Positions 11,779 to 29,293 of a stretch of 64,000 nt of DNA are shown here, piece by piece (the first letter of the stretch is position 1; every line of letters begins with the position of its first letter). Source of the DNA: Halorussus limi. GTDB taxonomy: Archaea; Halobacteriota; Halobacteria; Halobacteriales; Haladaptataceae. The notes beneath the pieces were generated by a model. The model saw only the letters and a list, made by a program, of their open reading frames with translations. It was not told the DNA's origin and searched no databases. The stretch is taken from contig NZ_CP096659.1 in the NCBI RefSeq assembly GCF_023238205.1, forward strand, positions 1,054,001 to 1,118,000, given 5' to 3'. Position numbers and translations under genes: made by a program.

Positions 11779-11804
11779 CGTTCGTTGGCGAAATACGGGT
11801 AATA

Positions 11805-14597
11805 ATGAGCGAACTCGAAGAGGAGTACCGCCTCGATTATTTCGAGGAAGAGGGCTTCGTCAGGAAGGAGTGTACCGAGTGCGGTGACTTCTTCTGGACG
11901 CGCGACGAGGACCGCGAGACCTGCGGCGAACCGCCGTGCGAGAACTACCAGTTCATCGACGACCCCGGGTTCCCCGAGCGACACACGCTCGAAGAGATGC
12001 GCGAGGCGTTCCTCTCGTTCTTCGAGGAGAACGACCACGAGCGCATCGAACCCTACCCGGTCGCGGCGAACCGCTGGCGCGACGACGTGCTGCTGACCCA
12101 AGCGTCCATCTACGACTTCCAGCCGCTCGTCACGTCGGGCGAGACCCCGCCGCCGGCCAACCCGCTGACAATCAGCCAACCCTGCATCCGGATGCAGGAC
12201 ATCGACAACGTGGGCAAGACCGGGCGCCACACGATGGCCTTCGAGATGATGGCCCACCACGCGTTCAACGCCCGCGAGGACCTCGAAGACCCCGAGAAGT
12301 ACGCCTATCAGGGCGAAGTCTACTGGAAGGACGAGACCGTCGAGTACTGCGACCGGTTCTTCGAGTCGATGGGGGCCAATCTGGACGAAATCACCTACAT
12401 CGAGGACCCGTGGGTCGGCGGCGGCAACGCCGGCCCCGCCATCGAGGTCATCTACAAGGGCGCGGAGTTGGCGACGTTGGTCTTCATGTCGATGGAGCAG
12501 GACCCCGACGGCGAGTACGAGATGAAGGACGGCAACCGGTACTCCAAGATGGACACCTACATCGTGGACACCGGGTACGGACTGGAGCGCTGGACGTGGG
12601 TCTCGCAGGGCACCCCGACCGTCTACGAGGCGGTCTACCCCGAGATGATATCGTTCCTGAAGGACAACGCCGGAATCGACCACTCGGACGACGAGGAGAC
12701 GCTGGTCCACCGCGCCTCGAAACTCGCGGGCCACATGGACATCGACGAGGCCGAGGACATGGAGGCCGCCCGCGACAACATCGCCCGCGAGTTGGACGTG
12801 TCCACCGACGAGCTAGAGGCCCTGCTCGAACCCCTCGAAGACATCTACGCCATCGCCGACCACTGCCGGACGCTGGCGTACATGCTCGGCGACGGCATCG
12901 TGCCGAGCAACGTCGGCACGGGCTACCTCGCGCGGATGGTCCTCCGGCGGACCAAGCGCCTCTGCGACAACGTCGGCGTGGACGCGCCGCTCGACGAACT
13001 CGTGGACATGCAGGCCGAGCGACTGGGCTACGAGAACCGCGACACCGTCCGCGACATCGTCCGGACCGAGGTCGAGAAGTACCGCGAGACGCTCGAACAG
13101 GGCGGCCGCCGCGTCGAGCGCCTCGCCGAGGAGTACGCCGAGCGGGGCGACCCGATTCCGACCGACGAACTGGTCGAACTCTACGATTCCCACGGCATCC
13201 AACCCGACATGGTCGAGGAGATAGCCGCGGAGTTCGGCGCGGAGGTGGACGTGCCCGACGACTTCTACAGCGTCGTCGCCTCGCGCCACGACTCCGGGCA
13301 GGCCTTCGAGGACGAAGAGGAGCAGGACGACCGACTCGGCGACCTGCCCGAGACCGAGCGCCAGTTCTACGAGGACCAGTACGGCACCGACTTCGAGGCC
13401 GTGGTCCTCGACGTGTTCGAGCGCGAGGGCGAGGACGGCGAACCGGTGTACGACGTGGTGCTGGACCAGACGATGTTCTACCCCGAGGGCGGCGGCCAAC
13501 CCGCCGACCACGGGACGCTGACCACCGACGAGAAGAGCGTGCAGGTCAGCGACGTTCAGACCCGGAACGGCGTCATCCTCCACCGGACCGACGACGAAAT
13601 CGACAAGGGCGACATCGTCCGCGGGAAGATAGACCGCGAACGCCGTCGTCGCCTGATGCGCCACCACACCGCGACCCACCTCGTGGTCCACGCGGCCCGC
13701 GAGGTGCTGGGCGACCACGTCCGGCAGGCGGGCGCCCAGAAGGGCATCGATAGCTCTCGCATCGACGTGCGCCACTACGAGCGCATCGACCGCGAGACCC
13801 GCGAGGAGATAGAGATGGTCGCCAACGAACTCGTGATGGAGAACACGTCGGTCCAGCAGGAGTGGCCCAACCGCCACGAGGCCGAGGAGGAGTACGGCTT
13901 CGACCTGTATCAGGGCGGCATCCCCGCGGGTCAGAACATCCGACTCATCCACGTCTCCGAGGACGTGCAGGCCTGCGGCGGCACCCACGTCCGGCGCACG
14001 GGCGACGTGGGCACCATCAAGATTCTGAACACCGAGCGCGTGCAGGACGGCGTCGAGCGCATCACCTTCGCCGCGGGCGAGGCCGCCATCGAGGCGACCC
14101 AGCGCACCGAAACCGCGCTCGCGGAGGCCGCCGACGTGCTGGACGTTGCCCCCGAAGAGGTCCCCGAGACCGCCCAGCGGTTCTTCGACGAGTGGAAGGG
14201 CCGGGGCAAGCAGATAGAGGACCTCAAGGAACAACTCGCGGAGGCCCGCGCCTCGGGCGGCGGAGGCGGCGAGGAGGTAGAGGTCGGCGACGCGGTGGCC
14301 GTCGTCCAGCGCCTCGACGCCGACATGGACGAACTCCGGGCGACCGCCAACGCGCTCGTCGAGGAGGGCAAGATAGCGGTCCTCGGAAGCGGCGCTGACG
14401 GCGCGACGTTCGTGGTCGCGGTGCCCGACGGCGTCGGCGTCAACGCCGGCGAAGTCGTCGGCGAACTCGCCCAGAAGGTCGGCGGGGGCGGCGGCGGCCC
14501 GCCGGACTTCGCGCAGGGCGGCGGTCCGGACGCCGACAAACTGGACGACGCGCTGGACGAGGCCCCGGACGTGCTGAAGCAGGTTCGGAACGCCTGA
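11805..14597 (+). CDS. alaS: Alanyl-tRNA synthetase
   Basis: A 930-residue archaeal-type AlaRS charging tRNA-Ala. It starts with the archaea-specific zinc module containing Cys23, Cys26, Cys40 and Cys45 (CTEC...CGEPPC). The catalytic domain contains [18 protein letters not shown], class II motif 2 and [13 protein letters not shown]. The editing domain carries the HxxxH of HHTATHL and the [11 protein letters not shown] motif that clears mischarged Ser and Gly. The C terminus has a Gly-rich linker and the C-Ala/DHHA1-like end. ATG 11805 is chosen over upstream in-frame codons because it gives the canonical archaeal [13 protein letters not shown] start. Confidence 0.97.
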
Positions 14598-17614: not shown

Positions 17615-18778
17615 TCAGGTCGCCAGTCCGAGGACGCGCTCGGCCGCCGCCTCGACCTCCGGAAGCGACTCCTCGGGCGCGTAGACGCCTAGCCGCCACT
17701 GGGAGCGACCGGCCGCGCGCAGGCCCTCGACCAGCGGCGACTCGTCGGCGAGTCGCCGAACCTCGCCGTCCACGACCACGCGCGTCGAGGACTCGGGCAT
17801 GCTGGGTTCGCCGGGCGTATCGACCAGCACGGACTCGGGAGGCACGTCGGCGACCGACGCGATGTCGCGCTCGAACGCCCGGACGTCGTCGCGGTCGGCG
17901 GTCACGACCGCTCGCGGAACCGCGTCGAGTTTCGCCCAGACCGCCCGCTTGTGGAGGTCGCGGCGTTCGAGTCGCCGGGCGGCGTCGGCCGTCGCCTCGC
18001 AGTCGCGCAGGGCCCCGAGCAGGCGGTCGTCGGTCATCCGAGCGAACTCCTCCGGCAGGAGGTCGGTCGCGTCGAGCAGGCGCTCGCCCGCGCGTTCGAG
18101 CATCGCGCCCGCGATGCGCGAGACGTGGTGGCGGTAGACGGTGGCGTTCATCAGCGTCCGGGCCACGAGCGTCCCCTCGGCGGTCTGGACGTTGCCCGCC
18201 GAGAGGACGAGGTCGTCGTCGCGGAACTGGAGCGCGGCCAGCAGGCGCGAGTGGTCGATGGTGCCGTAGGGGACGCCGGTGTGGTGGGCGTCCCGGACGA
18301 GGTAGTCCATGCGGTCCACGTCGAGTTCCCCGGCGACCAACTGCCCGAGTCGCCCTCTCCCCTCGACCAGCGCGGCGACCTCGGCGGGGTCGAGTCCGTG
18401 GCGCTCCAGCACCGCGGCGAGTCGCCCGGACGTGAGCAGGTCGCCGACCTCGTCGTGGTGGCGGCCGAGTCGCCGCTCGATGATGCCCTCTGTCTGGTGG
18501 CCGTAGGGTCCGTGACCCACGTCGTGGAGGAGCGCGGCCGCCCGCACCGCCAGCGCACGGTCGCCCTCGACGCCGAGGAGCGAGCAGGCCTCGCGGGCGA
18601 GATGGTAGACGCCGAGACTGTGTTCGAATCGCGTGTGGTTCGCGGAGGGGTAGACGAGGCGGACCGTGCTGAGTTGCTTGATGTGGCGCAGGCGCTGGAG
18701 TTCGGGCGTGTCGAGCAGGTCGGCCGCGAGGTCGCAGACGGGGACGTGGTCGTGGACGCTGTCCTTGATGGCCTTCAT
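17615..18778 (-). CDS. HD-domain phosphohydrolase (dGTPase-like)
   Basis: A 387-residue protein with the core of the dNTPase/YdhJ-like HD superfamily: the IKDSVHDHVPV start, TRFEHSLGVYHLA (first metal His), ALLHDVGHGPYGH (HD motif plus conserved Gly) and DVDRMDYLVRDAHHTG. It probably hydrolyses deoxynucleoside triphosphates or a related nucleotide in the cytoplasm. A start further upstream at 18877 would add an Arg/Pro-rich stretch that precedes the conserved N terminus, so ATG 18778 is preferred. It ends 47 bp beyond the convergent dpsA gene. Confidence 0.9.
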   Translation of the reverse strand: MKAIKDSVHDHVPVCDLAADLLDTPELQRLRHIKQLSTVRLVYPSANHTRFEHSLGVYHLAREACSLLGVEGDRALAVRAAALLHDVGHGPYGHQTEGIIERRLGRHHDEVGDLLTSGRLAAVLERHGLDPAEVAALVEGRGRLGQLVAGELDVDRMDYLVRDAHHTGVPYGTIDHSRLLAALQFRDDDLVLSAGNVQTAEGTLVARTLMNATVYRHHVSRIAGAMLERAGERLLDATDLLPEEFARMTDDRLLGALRDCEATADAARRLERRDLHKRAVWAKLDAVPRAVVTADRDDVRAFERDIASVADVPPESVLVDTPGEPSMPESSTRVVVDGEVRRLADESPLVEGLRAAGRSQWRLGVYAPEESLPEVEAAAERVLGLAT

Positions 18779-18899
18779 TGGGTCCGGATTGACAGACCGA
18801 TGGCAAAAGTGGCCCGTCTCGTCGCCTTCGCGCGTCGGCGGTCTCCCTCGGACGGGCGGTCGCACGACCGACTGCAAAAAGTATCTGCGGTCGAGGTGG

Positions 18900-23159: not shown

Positions 23160-23978
23160 ATGCCACACGCGGACAACGACGGCGTCTCTATCCATTACGA
23201 GGTCGGCGGCGACGGCGCAGTCGAGAGCGACGCGCCGGTCGTCCTGCTGGCCGACGCGGGCTACGGCCCGTGGCAGTGGGGTTGGCAGTACTCGGCGCTC
23301 GCAGGCCCCTTCGAAGTCGTCATCCCCAGCACGCGCGGAACCGGCGACTCCGACACCCCGGACCCGGACGCCGCCGACTCGTACAGCATCGAGACGATGG
23401 CCGCGGACCTCGAAGCGGTCCTCGCCGACTACGGCGCGCGCAAGGCCCACCTCGTCGGCGCGGGGATGGGCGGGATGGTCGCGCTCCGGTACGCGCTCGA
23501 CTTCTCGCGCGCTCGGACGCTGACCCTGCTCGGCACCTCGCCGGGCGGTCCGCGCGCGACGCCCGTCGCCGACGGCCTGCGCGAGCGACTGCGCGCAGAC
23601 CCCGACGACGCCGGGTCCCTCCGCCGGTCGCTCGAACCGGTCGCCTCCGCGGAACTGCTGGAGACCGAGGACCTCGTGGAGCGAATCGCGGCGTGGCGGC
23701 GCGACGAGGACGCCTCGGAGACGGTCCAGCTCGCGCACTTCGACGCGATGGCCGAGTTCGACGCCAGCGACAGCCTCTACGAGATTACGATTCCCGCGCT
23801 CGTCTGCCACGGCGCGGACGACCGGGTGATTCCGGCCGAGGACGGCCGCCTGCTGGCCGACGGCCTCCCGAAGGGCGAGTTCGAGGCGTTCCCCGGCGAA
23901 CGCCTCTTCTACGTCGAGCGCTCGAAGGCGGTCAACGACTCGCTGGTCGGATTCCTCACCGACCGAACCGAGGAGTGA
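23160..23978 (+). CDS. Alpha/beta hydrolase-fold protein lacking catalytic Ser and His
   Basis: A 272-residue protein with the full alpha/beta hydrolase layout: the oxyanion-region strand PVVLLADAGYG, the PSTRGTGDSD loop, the nucleophile elbow, a cap and C-terminal strand VCHGADDRVIP (acid Asp221). The elbow reads VGAGMGGMVALRYAL, so the Ser of GxSxG is Gly102, and the GH that normally supplies the catalytic His is Gly-Glu (246-247, PGERLFYVERS). It is therefore probably not a hydrolase. The next gene, an AMP-ligase-like protein, is equally stripped of catalytic residues. ATG 23160 is used because the upstream frame lacks family similarity. Confidence 0.85.
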   Translation: MPHADNDGVSIHYEVGGDGAVESDAPVVLLADAGYGPWQWGWQYSALAGPFEVVIPSTRGTGDSDTPDPDAADSYSIETMAADLEAVLADYGARKAHLVGAGMGGMVALRYALDFSRARTLTLLGTSPGGPRATPVADGLRERLRADPDDAGSLRRSLEPVASAELLETEDLVERIAAWRRDEDASETVQLAHFDAMAEFDASDSLYEITIPALVCHGADDRVIPAEDGRLLADGLPKGEFEAFPGERLFYVERSKAVNDSLVGFLTDRTEE

Positions 23979-24122
23979 GCGGGCCGGATTTCGCCGGACT
24001 GCTCCGAGACACTCGCCGAGAGACACCCGATTTCTACGGTAGTTCTCCCACCACCTCCGAGACGACGGAGTACCCCCGTCTTCGCAACAACGCCTACGGT
24101 CGGTGACGCCGAACCTCTCGAC

Positions 24123-25667
24123 ATGACGCTCTCGCTCGAACGCCGGGCCGCGCTCTGGGGGGACCGAACTGCGGTGGTGGACGCGAGCGCCGACCGCCGG
24201 GTCAGCTACGCCGACCTCGAATCGGAGGCCGACGCGATGGCGCGCAGACTCTCGGCGCTCGGGGTCGGACCGGGCGACCCGGTCGCGGTCGTCTCGCGCA
24301 ATCGGGTCGAGACGCTGGCGCTGTTGTTCGCCGTCCGGCGACTCGGCGGCGTCTTCGCGCCGGTCTCGTATCGGCTCACGCCCGCGACGGTCGAGGGACC
24401 GCTGGAACGCATCGACCCCGCGGTGGTGGTCCACGAGGCCGGACAGCGCGACCTCGTCCGTGAGTTACCAGACGAGCGGACCCACTCCTTCGAGGAGTTG
24501 GGTCGCCGCGACGGCGCCGACTACGAGCGCGCCGACCGCGACCCGGAGGACTCGCTGGTCTACCTCCACTCGAAGGCCGAGGCCGACCGGCCCATGGTCG
24601 GGGAGGACGAGGAGCGCGAACGCCGCGACGAGTCGCTGAGCGAGGGCCCGACGACGGCCCCGCAGGTGGTGGACTACCCGGCGCGGGCCGTGGAGTGGAA
24701 CTGCGTCACCGCCGCGGCCGCGTGGGGACTGGGCCGGAGCGACTGCGCGCCCGCCCTGCTTCCCTTCTCGGACGCCGACGGCCTCCTCCGCCTCGTCCTG
24801 CCGCTGCTCTACGTCGGCGGGCGAGTCCCCCTGCTCCGGGCGTTCGACCCCGAGGACGCGCTGGCCGCGATCGCCGAGGAGGGCGCGACCGCGCTGTTCG
24901 GCGGCGCGACCGAGTACCGCGAACTCGTCGCCAGCGACGAGTTCGGCGCGACCGACTTCGACGCCGTCGAGTGGGTCGGCACGCGGTCCCCGCTCCCGGC
25001 GGACGCCCGCGAGGAACTGGCCCGGCGCGCGCCCGTGGTCCGGACCTACGGCCGGGTCGAGACCGGTCCGAGCAACCTCTTCGTGCCGCCCGGCGAGTCC
25101 GGGAGCGCGGCCGATTCCCCGAAGCGCGACGCCGACCGGGTGGGCCGACCGTTCCCCGACTGCGAGGTCCGCGTCGCCGACGACGACGGAACGGCGGTAG
25201 AAGACGGCGAAATCGGTGAACTCCGGTTCAGGGGGGTCGTGACGCCGAAGGGACGGCTGACAGACGACGGGACGACCGAGGCGTTCCCCGAGTGGGTGCC
25301 GACGGGGGACCTCGGCTTCCGCGAGGGCGACGACTACTACCTCCTCGGGCCGGCGACCGAGGCGTTGGATTCGGGGGCGGACGGGTCGGCCCGGGTCCAC
25401 CCGCGGGAAATCGAGCGCGCGCTGGAGGCGCGAAACGGCGTCACCGCGGCGGGAGTGGTCCCGGACGCGGAGGGCGTGCTGGCGGCGTTCGTCGGCGACG
25501 CCGACCCCGGCGAGTTGCAGGGCGTCCTCGGCGACGAACTGCCGGAGGACGCGACGGTTCGGGAGGTCAACCGCGTCGAATCGCTTCCACGGCGGCGGAC
25601 CGGCGAGATAGACCGGGCCGCGCTCCGGCGGCAACTGGACGACGAGGAGCGCATCGGCAAGGGGTGA
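24123..25667 (+). CDS. AMP-dependent ligase-fold protein with degenerate active site
   Basis: A 514-residue protein of the ANL (acyl-CoA synthetase) superfamily by overall layout: SYADLESEADAMARRL, the A5 motif YGRVETGP (309-316), the A7 motif TGDLGFREGDDYYLLG (394-409) and a C-terminal subdomain. The ATP P-loop (normally YTSGTTGxPKG) is unrecognisable in LVYLHSKAEADRP (145-157), and an acidic insert of some 20 residues follows. The A10 lysine that orients the carboxylate is Glu495 in PRRRTGEIDR. These changes predict loss of adenylation. It lies 144 bp behind the degenerate hydrolase on the same strand. Confidence 0.85.
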   Translation: MTLSLERRAALWGDRTAVVDASADRRVSYADLESEADAMARRLSALGVGPGDPVAVVSRNRVETLALLFAVRRLGGVFAPVSYRLTPATVEGPLERIDPAVVVHEAGQRDLVRELPDERTHSFEELGRRDGADYERADRDPEDSLVYLHSKAEADRPMVGEDEERERRDESLSEGPTTAPQVVDYPARAVEWNCVTAAAAWGLGRSDCAPALLPFSDADGLLRLVLPLLYVGGRVPLLRAFDPEDALAAIAEEGATALFGGATEYRELVASDEFGATDFDAVEWVGTRSPLPADAREELARRAPVVRTYGRVETGPSNLFVPPGESGSAADSPKRDADRVGRPFPDCEVRVADDDGTAVEDGEIGELRFRGVVTPKGRLTDDGTTEAFPEWVPTGDLGFREGDDYYLLGPATEALDSGADGSARVHPREIERALEARNGVTAAGVVPDAEGVLAAFVGDADPGELQGVLGDELPEDATVREVNRVESLPRRRTGEIDRAALRRQLDDEERIGKG

Positions 25668-25688: not shown

Positions 25689-26759
25689 TCAGTTCGCGTC
25701 GCTTCCCGAGTCCGCGGAGTTGCCGGAGGTGCCGGAGTCGCCGGAGTCGCTCGCGAGTTTGAGACCCGACACGAGGCGGTTGGTGACGACGCGCGCCACG
25801 ATGCCGACGAGTTCGGCGTCGGTCCCGCTGGCGGTCAGGTCCGCGAAGACGCCGAGCGGAATCTGACCGCCGGCCATCTCGCGGTGGCCGCCCGCGCTCC
25901 CCACGTCGCCGAAGATGTCGCCGAGGGCGTTGCCGATGTGGATTCGCGGGTCGGTAGAGCGCGCGCTGAGTTCTATCTCGTCGTCCACGATGCCGAAGAC
26001 GATGGCGGTTTCGACGCCCTCCAGCGTCGCGAGGTAGTCGGCGGCCTGCGGGAGCGCGTCGCGTTCGCTCGTCCGGCCGACGTGGGAGATGAGGACCGAC
26101 CCTTTGACGGTCCGGTTGTCCACCGCGTCGGCGATGGCGTCCACCGTCGCGCCGCTGACCGCCGGGGTCGAGAGTCGCCGGAGCATGTCGGGGTCGGCGT
26201 AGTCGTGGAGAGTCCGGGCGGCCTCGTACTCGTCGCGGGTCACGCCTCGGAGGAAACCCAGTGTCTCGCGCCGGATGGCGAACAGCAGGCCGGTCGCCAG
26301 CACCTCGTCGAACGCCACGTCGAGTTCGCTGACGTACTCGGTCAGGATAGTCGCCGTCGCGCCGACCGCCTCGCGGTGGTCGACGAACCGGGCCTCGATG
26401 CCCTCGGCGGGGTGGTGGTCGATGACCACGTCTATCGGCACGTCCTCGGGCACCTCGTTGTTCACGCCGGGCACCGAGTGGTCCACGAGCGCGACCAGCG
26501 AGTTCTCCGCCCGGTCCCGGACGCTCTCGGGGTCGAACTCCCGGAGGTCGACCTCCAGCAGGTTGACGAACGCCCGGTTCTGCTGGTGGGAGATGTCGCC
26601 GCTGTAGAGGATGCGGCGCTCGTCGATGCCCGCGGCGGCCGCGATGCGGCCGAGCGCGAGCGCGCTGGCCAGACAGTCCGGGTCGGGGTTGTTGTGACAG
26701 ACGATGGCGAGTTCTTCGCCGTCGGCGAGGAGTTCGCGGAGCGTCTCGGCCTTGCTCAT
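25689..26759 (-). CDS. DHH-family phosphoesterase (NrnA/RecJ-like)
   Basis: A 356-residue protein. The DHH core shows VCHNNPDPDCLASALAL (motif I), VALVDHS (motif II) and VVIDHHPAEG (the DHH motif), and the DHHA1 nucleic-acid/substrate-binding domain ends in the typical GGHREMAGGQIP. Relatives are manganese-dependent nanoRNases, pAp phosphatases or c-di-AMP phosphodiesterases. Residues 340-356 are a disordered SGDSGTSGNS tail. It converges on the AMP-ligase-like gene with 21 bp between the stops. Confidence 0.9.
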   Translation of the reverse strand: MSKAETLRELLADGEELAIVCHNNPDPDCLASALALGRIAAAAGIDERRILYSGDISHQQNRAFVNLLEVDLREFDPESVRDRAENSLVALVDHSVPGVNNEVPEDVPIDVVIDHHPAEGIEARFVDHREAVGATATILTEYVSELDVAFDEVLATGLLFAIRRETLGFLRGVTRDEYEAARTLHDYADPDMLRRLSTPAVSGATVDAIADAVDNRTVKGSVLISHVGRTSERDALPQAADYLATLEGVETAIVFGIVDDEIELSARSTDPRIHIGNALGDIFGDVGSAGGHREMAGGQIPLGVFADLTASGTDAELVGIVARVVTNRLVSGLKLASDSGDSGTSGNSADSGSDAN

Positions 26760-28576: not shown

Positions 28577-29293
28577 ATGAGTCGATTGCGAATCGCGTTC
28601 GTCAACGCCGCCCACGACGGCGCAGACACTCGGCGGAACTTCCGGCGGGAGTTGGACGCCGACCTCGTGGAGTTCGACGCGACCGGCGGCGACCTGCCAG
28701 AGACCACCGACTTCGACGGCGTCGTGGTCTCGGGGTCCCGGTCGTCGGTCTACTGGGACGAAGAGTGGATAGCACCGACGAAAGCGTGGGTCCGCGAGGC
28801 CATCGACGCCGGACTCCCCTGCCTCGGCGTCTGTTGGGGCCACCAACTGCTCGCGGACGTGTTGGGCGGCGAAGTCGCCGACATGGGCGAGTACGAAATC
28901 GGGTATCGGGAGGTCGAACAGACGGGCGACGCGCGACTGTTCGACGGCATCGACGACCGGTTCACGGTGTTCACGACCCACTCCGACGCGGTAACGGAAC
29001 TCCCGCCGGGCGCGGAAGAAATCGCCGCGAACGACTACTCGAACCACGGTTTCCGGAAGGACCGCGTGTTCGGCGTGCAGTTCCACCCCGAGTACGACAC
29101 CGAGACCGCCGAATCGGTGACGAAGGGCAAGGACCTCGCCGACGACCGGATGGACGAGGTGCTCTCGGGCATCAACGAGGAGAACTACCGGGCGGCCTGC
29201 GAGGCGAAACTCGTCTTCGAGAACTTCTGTGACTTCGTCCGCGAGGTCCGCGAGCGCGACTCCGAGGGCGGAAGCGGAACCGTCTCGGCGTAG
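28577..29293 (+). CDS. Type 1 (class I) glutamine amidotransferase
   Basis: A 238-residue stand-alone glutamine amidotransferase domain. The nucleophile lies in GLPCLGVCWGHQLLADVLGG (second Cys), and the His/Glu pair in GVQFHPEYD. It resembles the GMP-synthase/anthranilate-synthase glutaminase type. Without a synthetase partner nearby, it may instead belong to the family acting on gamma-glutamyl compounds. It starts 36 bp after a possible CTTTTGA box and is not operonic with its neighbours. Confidence 0.9.
   Translation: MSRLRIAFVNAAHDGADTRRNFRRELDADLVEFDATGGDLPETTDFDGVVVSGSRSSVYWDEEWIAPTKAWVREAIDAGLPCLGVCWGHQLLADVLGGEVADMGEYEIGYREVEQTGDARLFDGIDDRFTVFTTHSDAVTELPPGAEEIAANDYSNHGFRKDRVFGVQFHPEYDTETAESVTKGKDLADDRMDEVLSGINEENYRAACEAKLVFENFCDFVREVRERDSEGGSGTVSA

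Follow-up and report, generated by a model that had tools for sequence, protein, structure and literature searches.

An alpha/beta-hydrolase-fold protein without its nucleophile and a neighbouring ligase derivative without its adenylation motifs are conserved under purifying selection in haloarchaea

Two adjacent genes of Halorussus limi, one encoding an alpha/beta-hydrolase-fold protein without a nucleophile and the other an ANL-fold ligase derivative without the adenylation motifs, are neither an artefact nor a pair in decay. Judging by their sequences, both proteins probably have functions that differ from the textbook hydrolase and acyl-CoA ligase reactions. We tentatively favour, at slightly less than an even chance, a reading in which the hydrolase-like protein has been repurposed as a nucleophile-free ligand-binding protein and the ligase derivative serves as its noncatalytic partner. 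The genes lie in a stretch of 64,000 nt from H. limi, referred to here as the window (GCF_023238205.1, NZ_CP096659.1, positions 1,054,001–1,118,000, forward strand).

Results

The gene pair

Both reading frames are intact, as an earlier note on this DNA had reported, and they are separated by 144 bp (Table 1). That note had also described their codon bias as normal, and their RSCU indeed correlates with that of neighbouring genes at r 0.92 and 0.94, where an antisense control reaches 0.81; their GC3 is 0.91–0.92. Each protein belongs to its fold superfamily, the hydrolase scoring 65.5 bits with Abhydrolase_1 (cut-off 25.8) and the ligase 148.3 bits with AMP-binding (cut-off 29.9). Neither reaches any of the NCBIfam equivalog cut-offs among those listed: the hydrolase scores 85.7 against a curated cut-off of 255.85 for PcaD and 71.1 against one of 238.5 for RutD, and it likewise falls outside the curated BioH/MenH equivalogs.

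Both proteins are predicted to have intact folds. The AF2 model of the hydrolase has a pLDDT of 86.7, the other four of the five models being less confident, and its closest solved structures are the esterases 6eb3 and 8v16 (Z 34.7). With esterases, enol-lactonases and RutD-type enzymes (6eb3, 8v16, 2xua, 3v48) it shares the whole fold, the elbow and the Asp position at 20–29% identity (Z 31–35), but it differs from them in having no Ser nucleophile, an acid in the oxyanion-turn region and, in the window copy, Arg at the His site. The ligase model (pLDDT 87.0) is closest to 8wev (Z 47.0), an ANL feruloyl-CoA synthetase whose fold it matches over 457 residues. Unlike active ANL acyl-CoA synthetases, the pseudo-ligases have no P-loop, no A8 Arg/Lys region and no A10 Lys, and the C-terminal domain is often missing.

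Table 1. Features of the locus, with positions numbered from the first letter of the window
Feature	Position	Strand	Evidence or remark
Alanyl-tRNA synthetase (AlaRS), upstream flank of the ancestral locus	11796..14429 (matched span, not exact limits)	+	77.8% identity over 880 aa to the Natrialbaceae AlaRS adjoining the hydrolase
HD-domain gene	17615-18877	-	Between AlaRS and hydrolase
Ser-less alpha/beta-hydrolase-fold protein, 272 aa	23160..23978	+	Pfam Abhydrolase_1, E 7.6e-18
Codon of Asp32, acid for the paralogues' Gly, end of strand beta3 (oxyanion-turn region)	23253..23255	+	Asp/Glu in 105/107 orthologues
Codon of Gly102, nucleophile position	23463..23465	+	Gly in 107/107 orthologues, Ser in 16/16 paralogues
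Codon of Asp221, catalytic acid kept	23820..23822	+	Invariant in 107/107 plus 16 paralogues
Codon of Arg248, catalytic-His position	23901..23903	+	His in 99/107, Arg in 8/107 orthologues
Pseudo acyl-CoA/AMP ligase, ANL fold, 514 aa	24123..25667	+	Pfam AMP-binding, E 3.6e-43
Patch conserved in pseudo-ligases, residues 80-113	24360..24461	+	T86, P87, Q108, R109, D110, R113
Former P-loop (A3) region with variable acidic insertion specific to Halorussus	24567..24671	+	Motif table; pLDDT <50
Codon of Glu495, A10 Lys position	25605..25607	+	TGExDR/TGExNR in C-domain-bearing pseudo-ligases
DHH-type phosphoesterase gene	25689-26759	-	Weakly like Mn-dependent pyrophosphatase
Class-I glutamine amidotransferase (GATase)	28577..29293	+	Pfam GATase, E 1.4e-25

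A single, ancient loss of the hydrolase nucleophile

We set the residue register of the hydrolase by alignment to paralogues that retain the full triad (nucleophile 102, acid 221, His 248). The earlier note had read Gly in place of the nucleophile Ser and had called for an alignment of orthologues; in ours, the substitution extends to every orthologue, drawn from eight haloarchaeal families, although a few genomes, such as those with Halalkalicoccus-like loci, contribute two of the 107 rows each and the independent number is slightly lower. No Ser, Cys or Asp nucleophile thus stands in the GxNxG elbow, which sets the family apart from serine hydrolases and means that it cannot form the acyl-enzyme of the alpha/beta-hydrolase family. 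A Cys beside the nucleophile position was considered as a migrated nucleophile and rejected, as position 101 varies among A, C, L, V and S.

The window protein also departs from serine hydrolases in lacking the His after strand 8, which most orthologues keep. The earlier note had placed this catalytic position at Glu247; alignment to the triad paralogues reveals a register error of one residue, the His column being 248, with Arg in the window. All 16 Ser-bearing paralogues have His at this position. Exchange between His and Arg requires at least five changes on the tree, and Arg248 is a recent, recurrent change found mostly inside Halorussus. As far as the alignment indicates, position 248 stays cationic throughout, as His or sometimes Arg.

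Residue 32 is Gly in all 16 Ser-bearing paralogues. In a profile alignment it coincides with the end of strand beta3, the usual site of one oxyanion-hole residue (PMC7034887), and the new acid there would face the pocket. Two Ser-less hydrolases (L286 and L287) have Pro rather than an acid at this position. W38 and N259 are invariant or nearly so.

In the tree, the Ser-less hydrolases, thinned to 99 rows, all fall on one side of one branch (SH-aLRT 100). On this phylogeny, the family is an old haloarchaeal paralogue of a Ser-dependent alpha/beta-hydrolase of the esterase type, and the change from Ser to Gly was fixed in it once. The hydrolase is present at ortholog-level identity in 17 of 18 sampled Halorussus genomes, the one without a match being a 62%-complete assembly in which the ligase lies on a short contig, and in 124 of 125 Natrialbaceae genomes (E <= 1e-50). 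Families beyond Haladaptataceae and Natrialbaceae were reached by following the GATase, and six of these (f4, f5, f6, f7, f9 and f15, the last of which we take to be Halalkalicoccus) also hold a Ser-less hydrolase near AlaRS and/or the GATase. Across the order, 333 of 392 genomes have a match at 1e-50, a count that includes some Ser paralogues, and a phylum search at 1e-30 returned, among the matches listed, only genomes from the order of H. limi itself. At 20 hydrolase loci from Natrialbaceae genomes with no pseudo-ligase above threshold, the elbow residue is always Gly, and most of these loci have the GATase inside the fetched stretch.

A younger ligase derivative that has lost its adenylation motifs

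The lack of a P-loop, noted earlier for the window ligase, proved to be a property of the whole pseudo-ligase clade, in which the A3 motif [ST]GxTGxPK is absent; with the A10 Lys replaced in the window copy by Glu495, as had also been seen, the protein falls outside the catalytic ANL enzymes. The active paralogue's motif LHTGGSTGVPKETV is replaced in the window ligase, and the A8 motif GRKK is gone. An acidic residue occupies the A10 Lys position in all C-domain-bearing pseudo-ligases, within TGDLDR in Halomicrococcus and SGELDR in two Haladaptatus, where active relatives have SGxxK[IL]DR. The C-terminal domain itself is absent from the ligases of Natrialbaceae and family f15 and from three Halorussus copies, a distribution that requires at least three changes on the tree. 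In one of these Halorussus copies (L080, genome G009), an in-frame deletion has removed nearly the whole domain and left its last 19 codons; no remnant C-domain DNA was seen in the other two. With no P-loop, no A10 Lys and a C-domain that is often gone, adenylation by the ligase derivative is very unlikely.

The acidic insertion described in the earlier note is real, variable among Halorussus and predicted to be disordered (pLDDT <50, residues 153–173). Its DNA pattern is confined to Halorussus ligase loci among 297 fetched loci, and we reject a mobile element on the grounds that the pattern occurs in ligase loci only within this set. Nor did the insertion cause the loss of the P-loop, which is also missing from insertion-free Halorussus and from all Haladaptatus; without the insertion, the region has 20 residues, compared with 23 in the active paralogue.

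Within the pseudo-ligases, residues 80–113 (TP...QRDLxR) are strongly conserved, whereas nothing is left of the conservation at A3, A4 and A10, and that at A5 and A7 is eroding. The patch residues are each conserved in 96–100% of 90 pseudo-ligase rows and mostly not conserved in 14 active rows, a pattern which indicates that constraint has shifted away from the adenylate site and onto this patch.

The P-loop-less ligases form one clade of 57 (SH-aLRT 99). Its closest relatives keep the GGTTGxPK and SGxGK motifs and are active ligases; on this tree, the pseudo-ligase derives once from ANL ligases. It is the younger of the two genes. Most active sister ligases adjoin Liv-type ABC transporter genes by our reading of the sequences (L105–L107, L140), and those in Liv operons likely serve carboxylate uptake and activation. 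At a further locus (L142), an active CoA-ligase relative lies in a Liv-type branched-chain ABC transporter operon that is accompanied by an active Ser hydrolase.

The clade spans three families, comprising genera of Haladaptataceae, Natrialbaceae and probable Halalkalicoccus. All 18 sampled Halorussus genomes have the pseudo-ligase, and the other sampled Haladaptataceae, nine Haladaptatus and one Halomicrococcus, all have both genes, which in Halomicrococcus lie ~35 kb apart. Among 125 Natrialbaceae genomes, the pseudo-ligase is found in 86 and was not detected in 39, at least one of which (G379) has an active ligase relative. Wherever a checked genome has a pseudo-ligase, it has a Ser-less hydrolase too, including genomes in which the two genes are unlinked.

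An older locus joined by the ligase

Elsewhere the gene order reads AlaRS, hydrolase, ligase where present, GATase and often a gene that by our reading of its sequence encodes an acyl-CoA dehydrogenase. The GATase adjoins the Ser-less hydrolase in most loci across families, including those that are free of the ligase. We therefore reject the hydrolase–ligase pair as the ancestral unit, the association of hydrolase and GATase being older and wider; the ligase-like gene joined an older AlaRS–hydrolase–GATase locus later and is dispensable. Neighbourhood alone does not prove a partnership with the GATase, because AlaRS travels with the block, and the hydrolase–GATase link may be plain synteny, given that the conserved neighbourhood also takes in genes for AlaRS, an HD-domain protein and acyl-CoA dehydrogenase. 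This class-I GATase, which resembles the amidotransferase domain of GMP synthase and gamma-glutamyl peptidase 1, occurs in 51 of the 59 genomes sampled across the order. In several Halorussus, the DHH-type gene is inserted between the ligase and the GATase, and in the window one plus-strand gene of unrecognised family lies between it and the GATase.

Selection on both genes

Pairwise NG86 medians of dN/dS are 0.324 (Halorussus) and 0.264 (Natrialbaceae) for the pseudo-hydrolase and 0.375 and 0.381, respectively, for the pseudo-ligase. For comparison, the active hydrolase paralogue gives 0.239 and the GATase 0.218 and 0.231. These medians likely exceed the true ratios, because strong GC3 bias probably depresses dS. 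These values indicate purifying selection on both genes, somewhat relaxed for the ligase. Together with the finding that no orthologue has Ser102 or a P-loop, they support the earlier note's proposal that the pair is repurposed rather than decaying.

Discussion

We tentatively favour a model in which the Ser-less hydrolase would reversibly bind a small ligand in a charged, nucleophile-free pocket, without hydrolysis, and may serve in sensing, as a carrier or as a regulatory subunit. The ligase derivative would be a noncatalytic partner or scaffold that touches the hydrolase, or a common partner, through its N-terminal patch; such a role is suggested by the shift in its conservation and by the fact that it occurs together with the hydrolase whether or not the genes are linked. 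The same co-occurrence agrees in part with the earlier note's idea that the adjacent pair had become a complex, but the hydrolase is by far the older of the two and often stands alone. Indeed, the hydrolase must be able to play its role without the pseudo-ligase, given the number of Natrialbaceae genomes in which none was detected. Two considerations weigh against binding: the Asp-His pair kept in most orthologues is more than a pure binding protein needs, and Gly at the strained elbow may serve folding alone.

That retained pair is what makes a changed chemistry possible, though we consider it somewhat improbable. The Ser-less protein would then still be an enzyme, its general base being the Asp221–His248 dyad together with the acid at 32, an idea that fits the invariance of Asp221, the prevalence of His248 and the acid gained at 32. 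There is also precedent for nucleophile-independent use of a His-Asp pair in the cofactor-independent HOD/AqdC-type dioxygenases of the same fold, in which the nucleophile is dispensable and some members have Ala in its place (PMC10548524). Most Ser-less hydrolases resemble these dioxygenases in keeping the pair, which the window copy does not; unlike them, they have Gly rather than Ala and an extra acid at 32, and their His is not universal. Arg248, present in the window and seven other orthologues, cannot act as a base, yet the Halorussus copies are under purifying selection, and no substrate or pathway context points to a reaction. Because Arg248 variants, the window's included, persist under selection, binding without turnover is slightly favoured.

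Two further explanations are less likely. Neutral decay, in which both would be dying pseudogenes or mere fold relics, could account for the erosion of ligase motifs A3–A10, the repeated loss of the C-domain and a ligase dN/dS above that of the neighbouring GATase. However, dN/dS is well below 1, the frames are open with rare exceptions, each pseudoenzyme clade has a single origin and is widely retained, and Asp221, W38 and N259 are (nearly) invariant. Selection and retention together lead us to reject a simple pseudogene, and decay is largely refuted. It is also unlikely that the pair regulates active Ser-hydrolase and CoA-ligase paralogues as a decoy or dominant-negative subunit. Most Halorussus genomes do carry such an active pair elsewhere (GASMGG; LHTGGSTG; SGPSKIDR), but the window's genome (G000), which is 99.99% complete, lacks it and still keeps the pseudo-pair; its next hydrolase match is 30% identical.

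In a broader and more doubtful version of these ideas, a haloarchaea-wide nucleophile-free family with an Asp-His(Arg)-acid pocket would carry out either a new noncovalent chemistry or ligand sensing with the class-I amidotransferase, and three families would have added, as a subunit, an ANL ligase that no longer has its ATP site.

To our knowledge, conserved pseudoenzymes are little documented in archaeal metabolism. The open-access collection searched, which excludes most subscription journals, yielded no description of haloarchaeal Ser-less hydrolases or pseudo-ANL ligases, and no paper was found there for four guessed Haloferax locus tags. Both proteins resemble pseudoenzymes generally in being conserved under selection with catalytic motifs missing (PMC10211241), although the terms hydrolase fold, acyl-CoA and adenylation do not occur in that review. 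Families of both kinds are known; what appears to be undescribed in the literature searched is an order-wide, conserved loss of a nucleophile and the later addition of a second dead enzyme.

Named by family match, the two genes would be taken, probably wrongly, to encode an active hydrolase and an acyl-CoA ligase. The active paralogues offer built-in controls for the role of an alpha/beta-hydrolase without a nucleophile. Genetic tools exist in this lineage, in which an order-wide nucleophile loss of single origin was followed by the recruitment of a second crippled enzyme.
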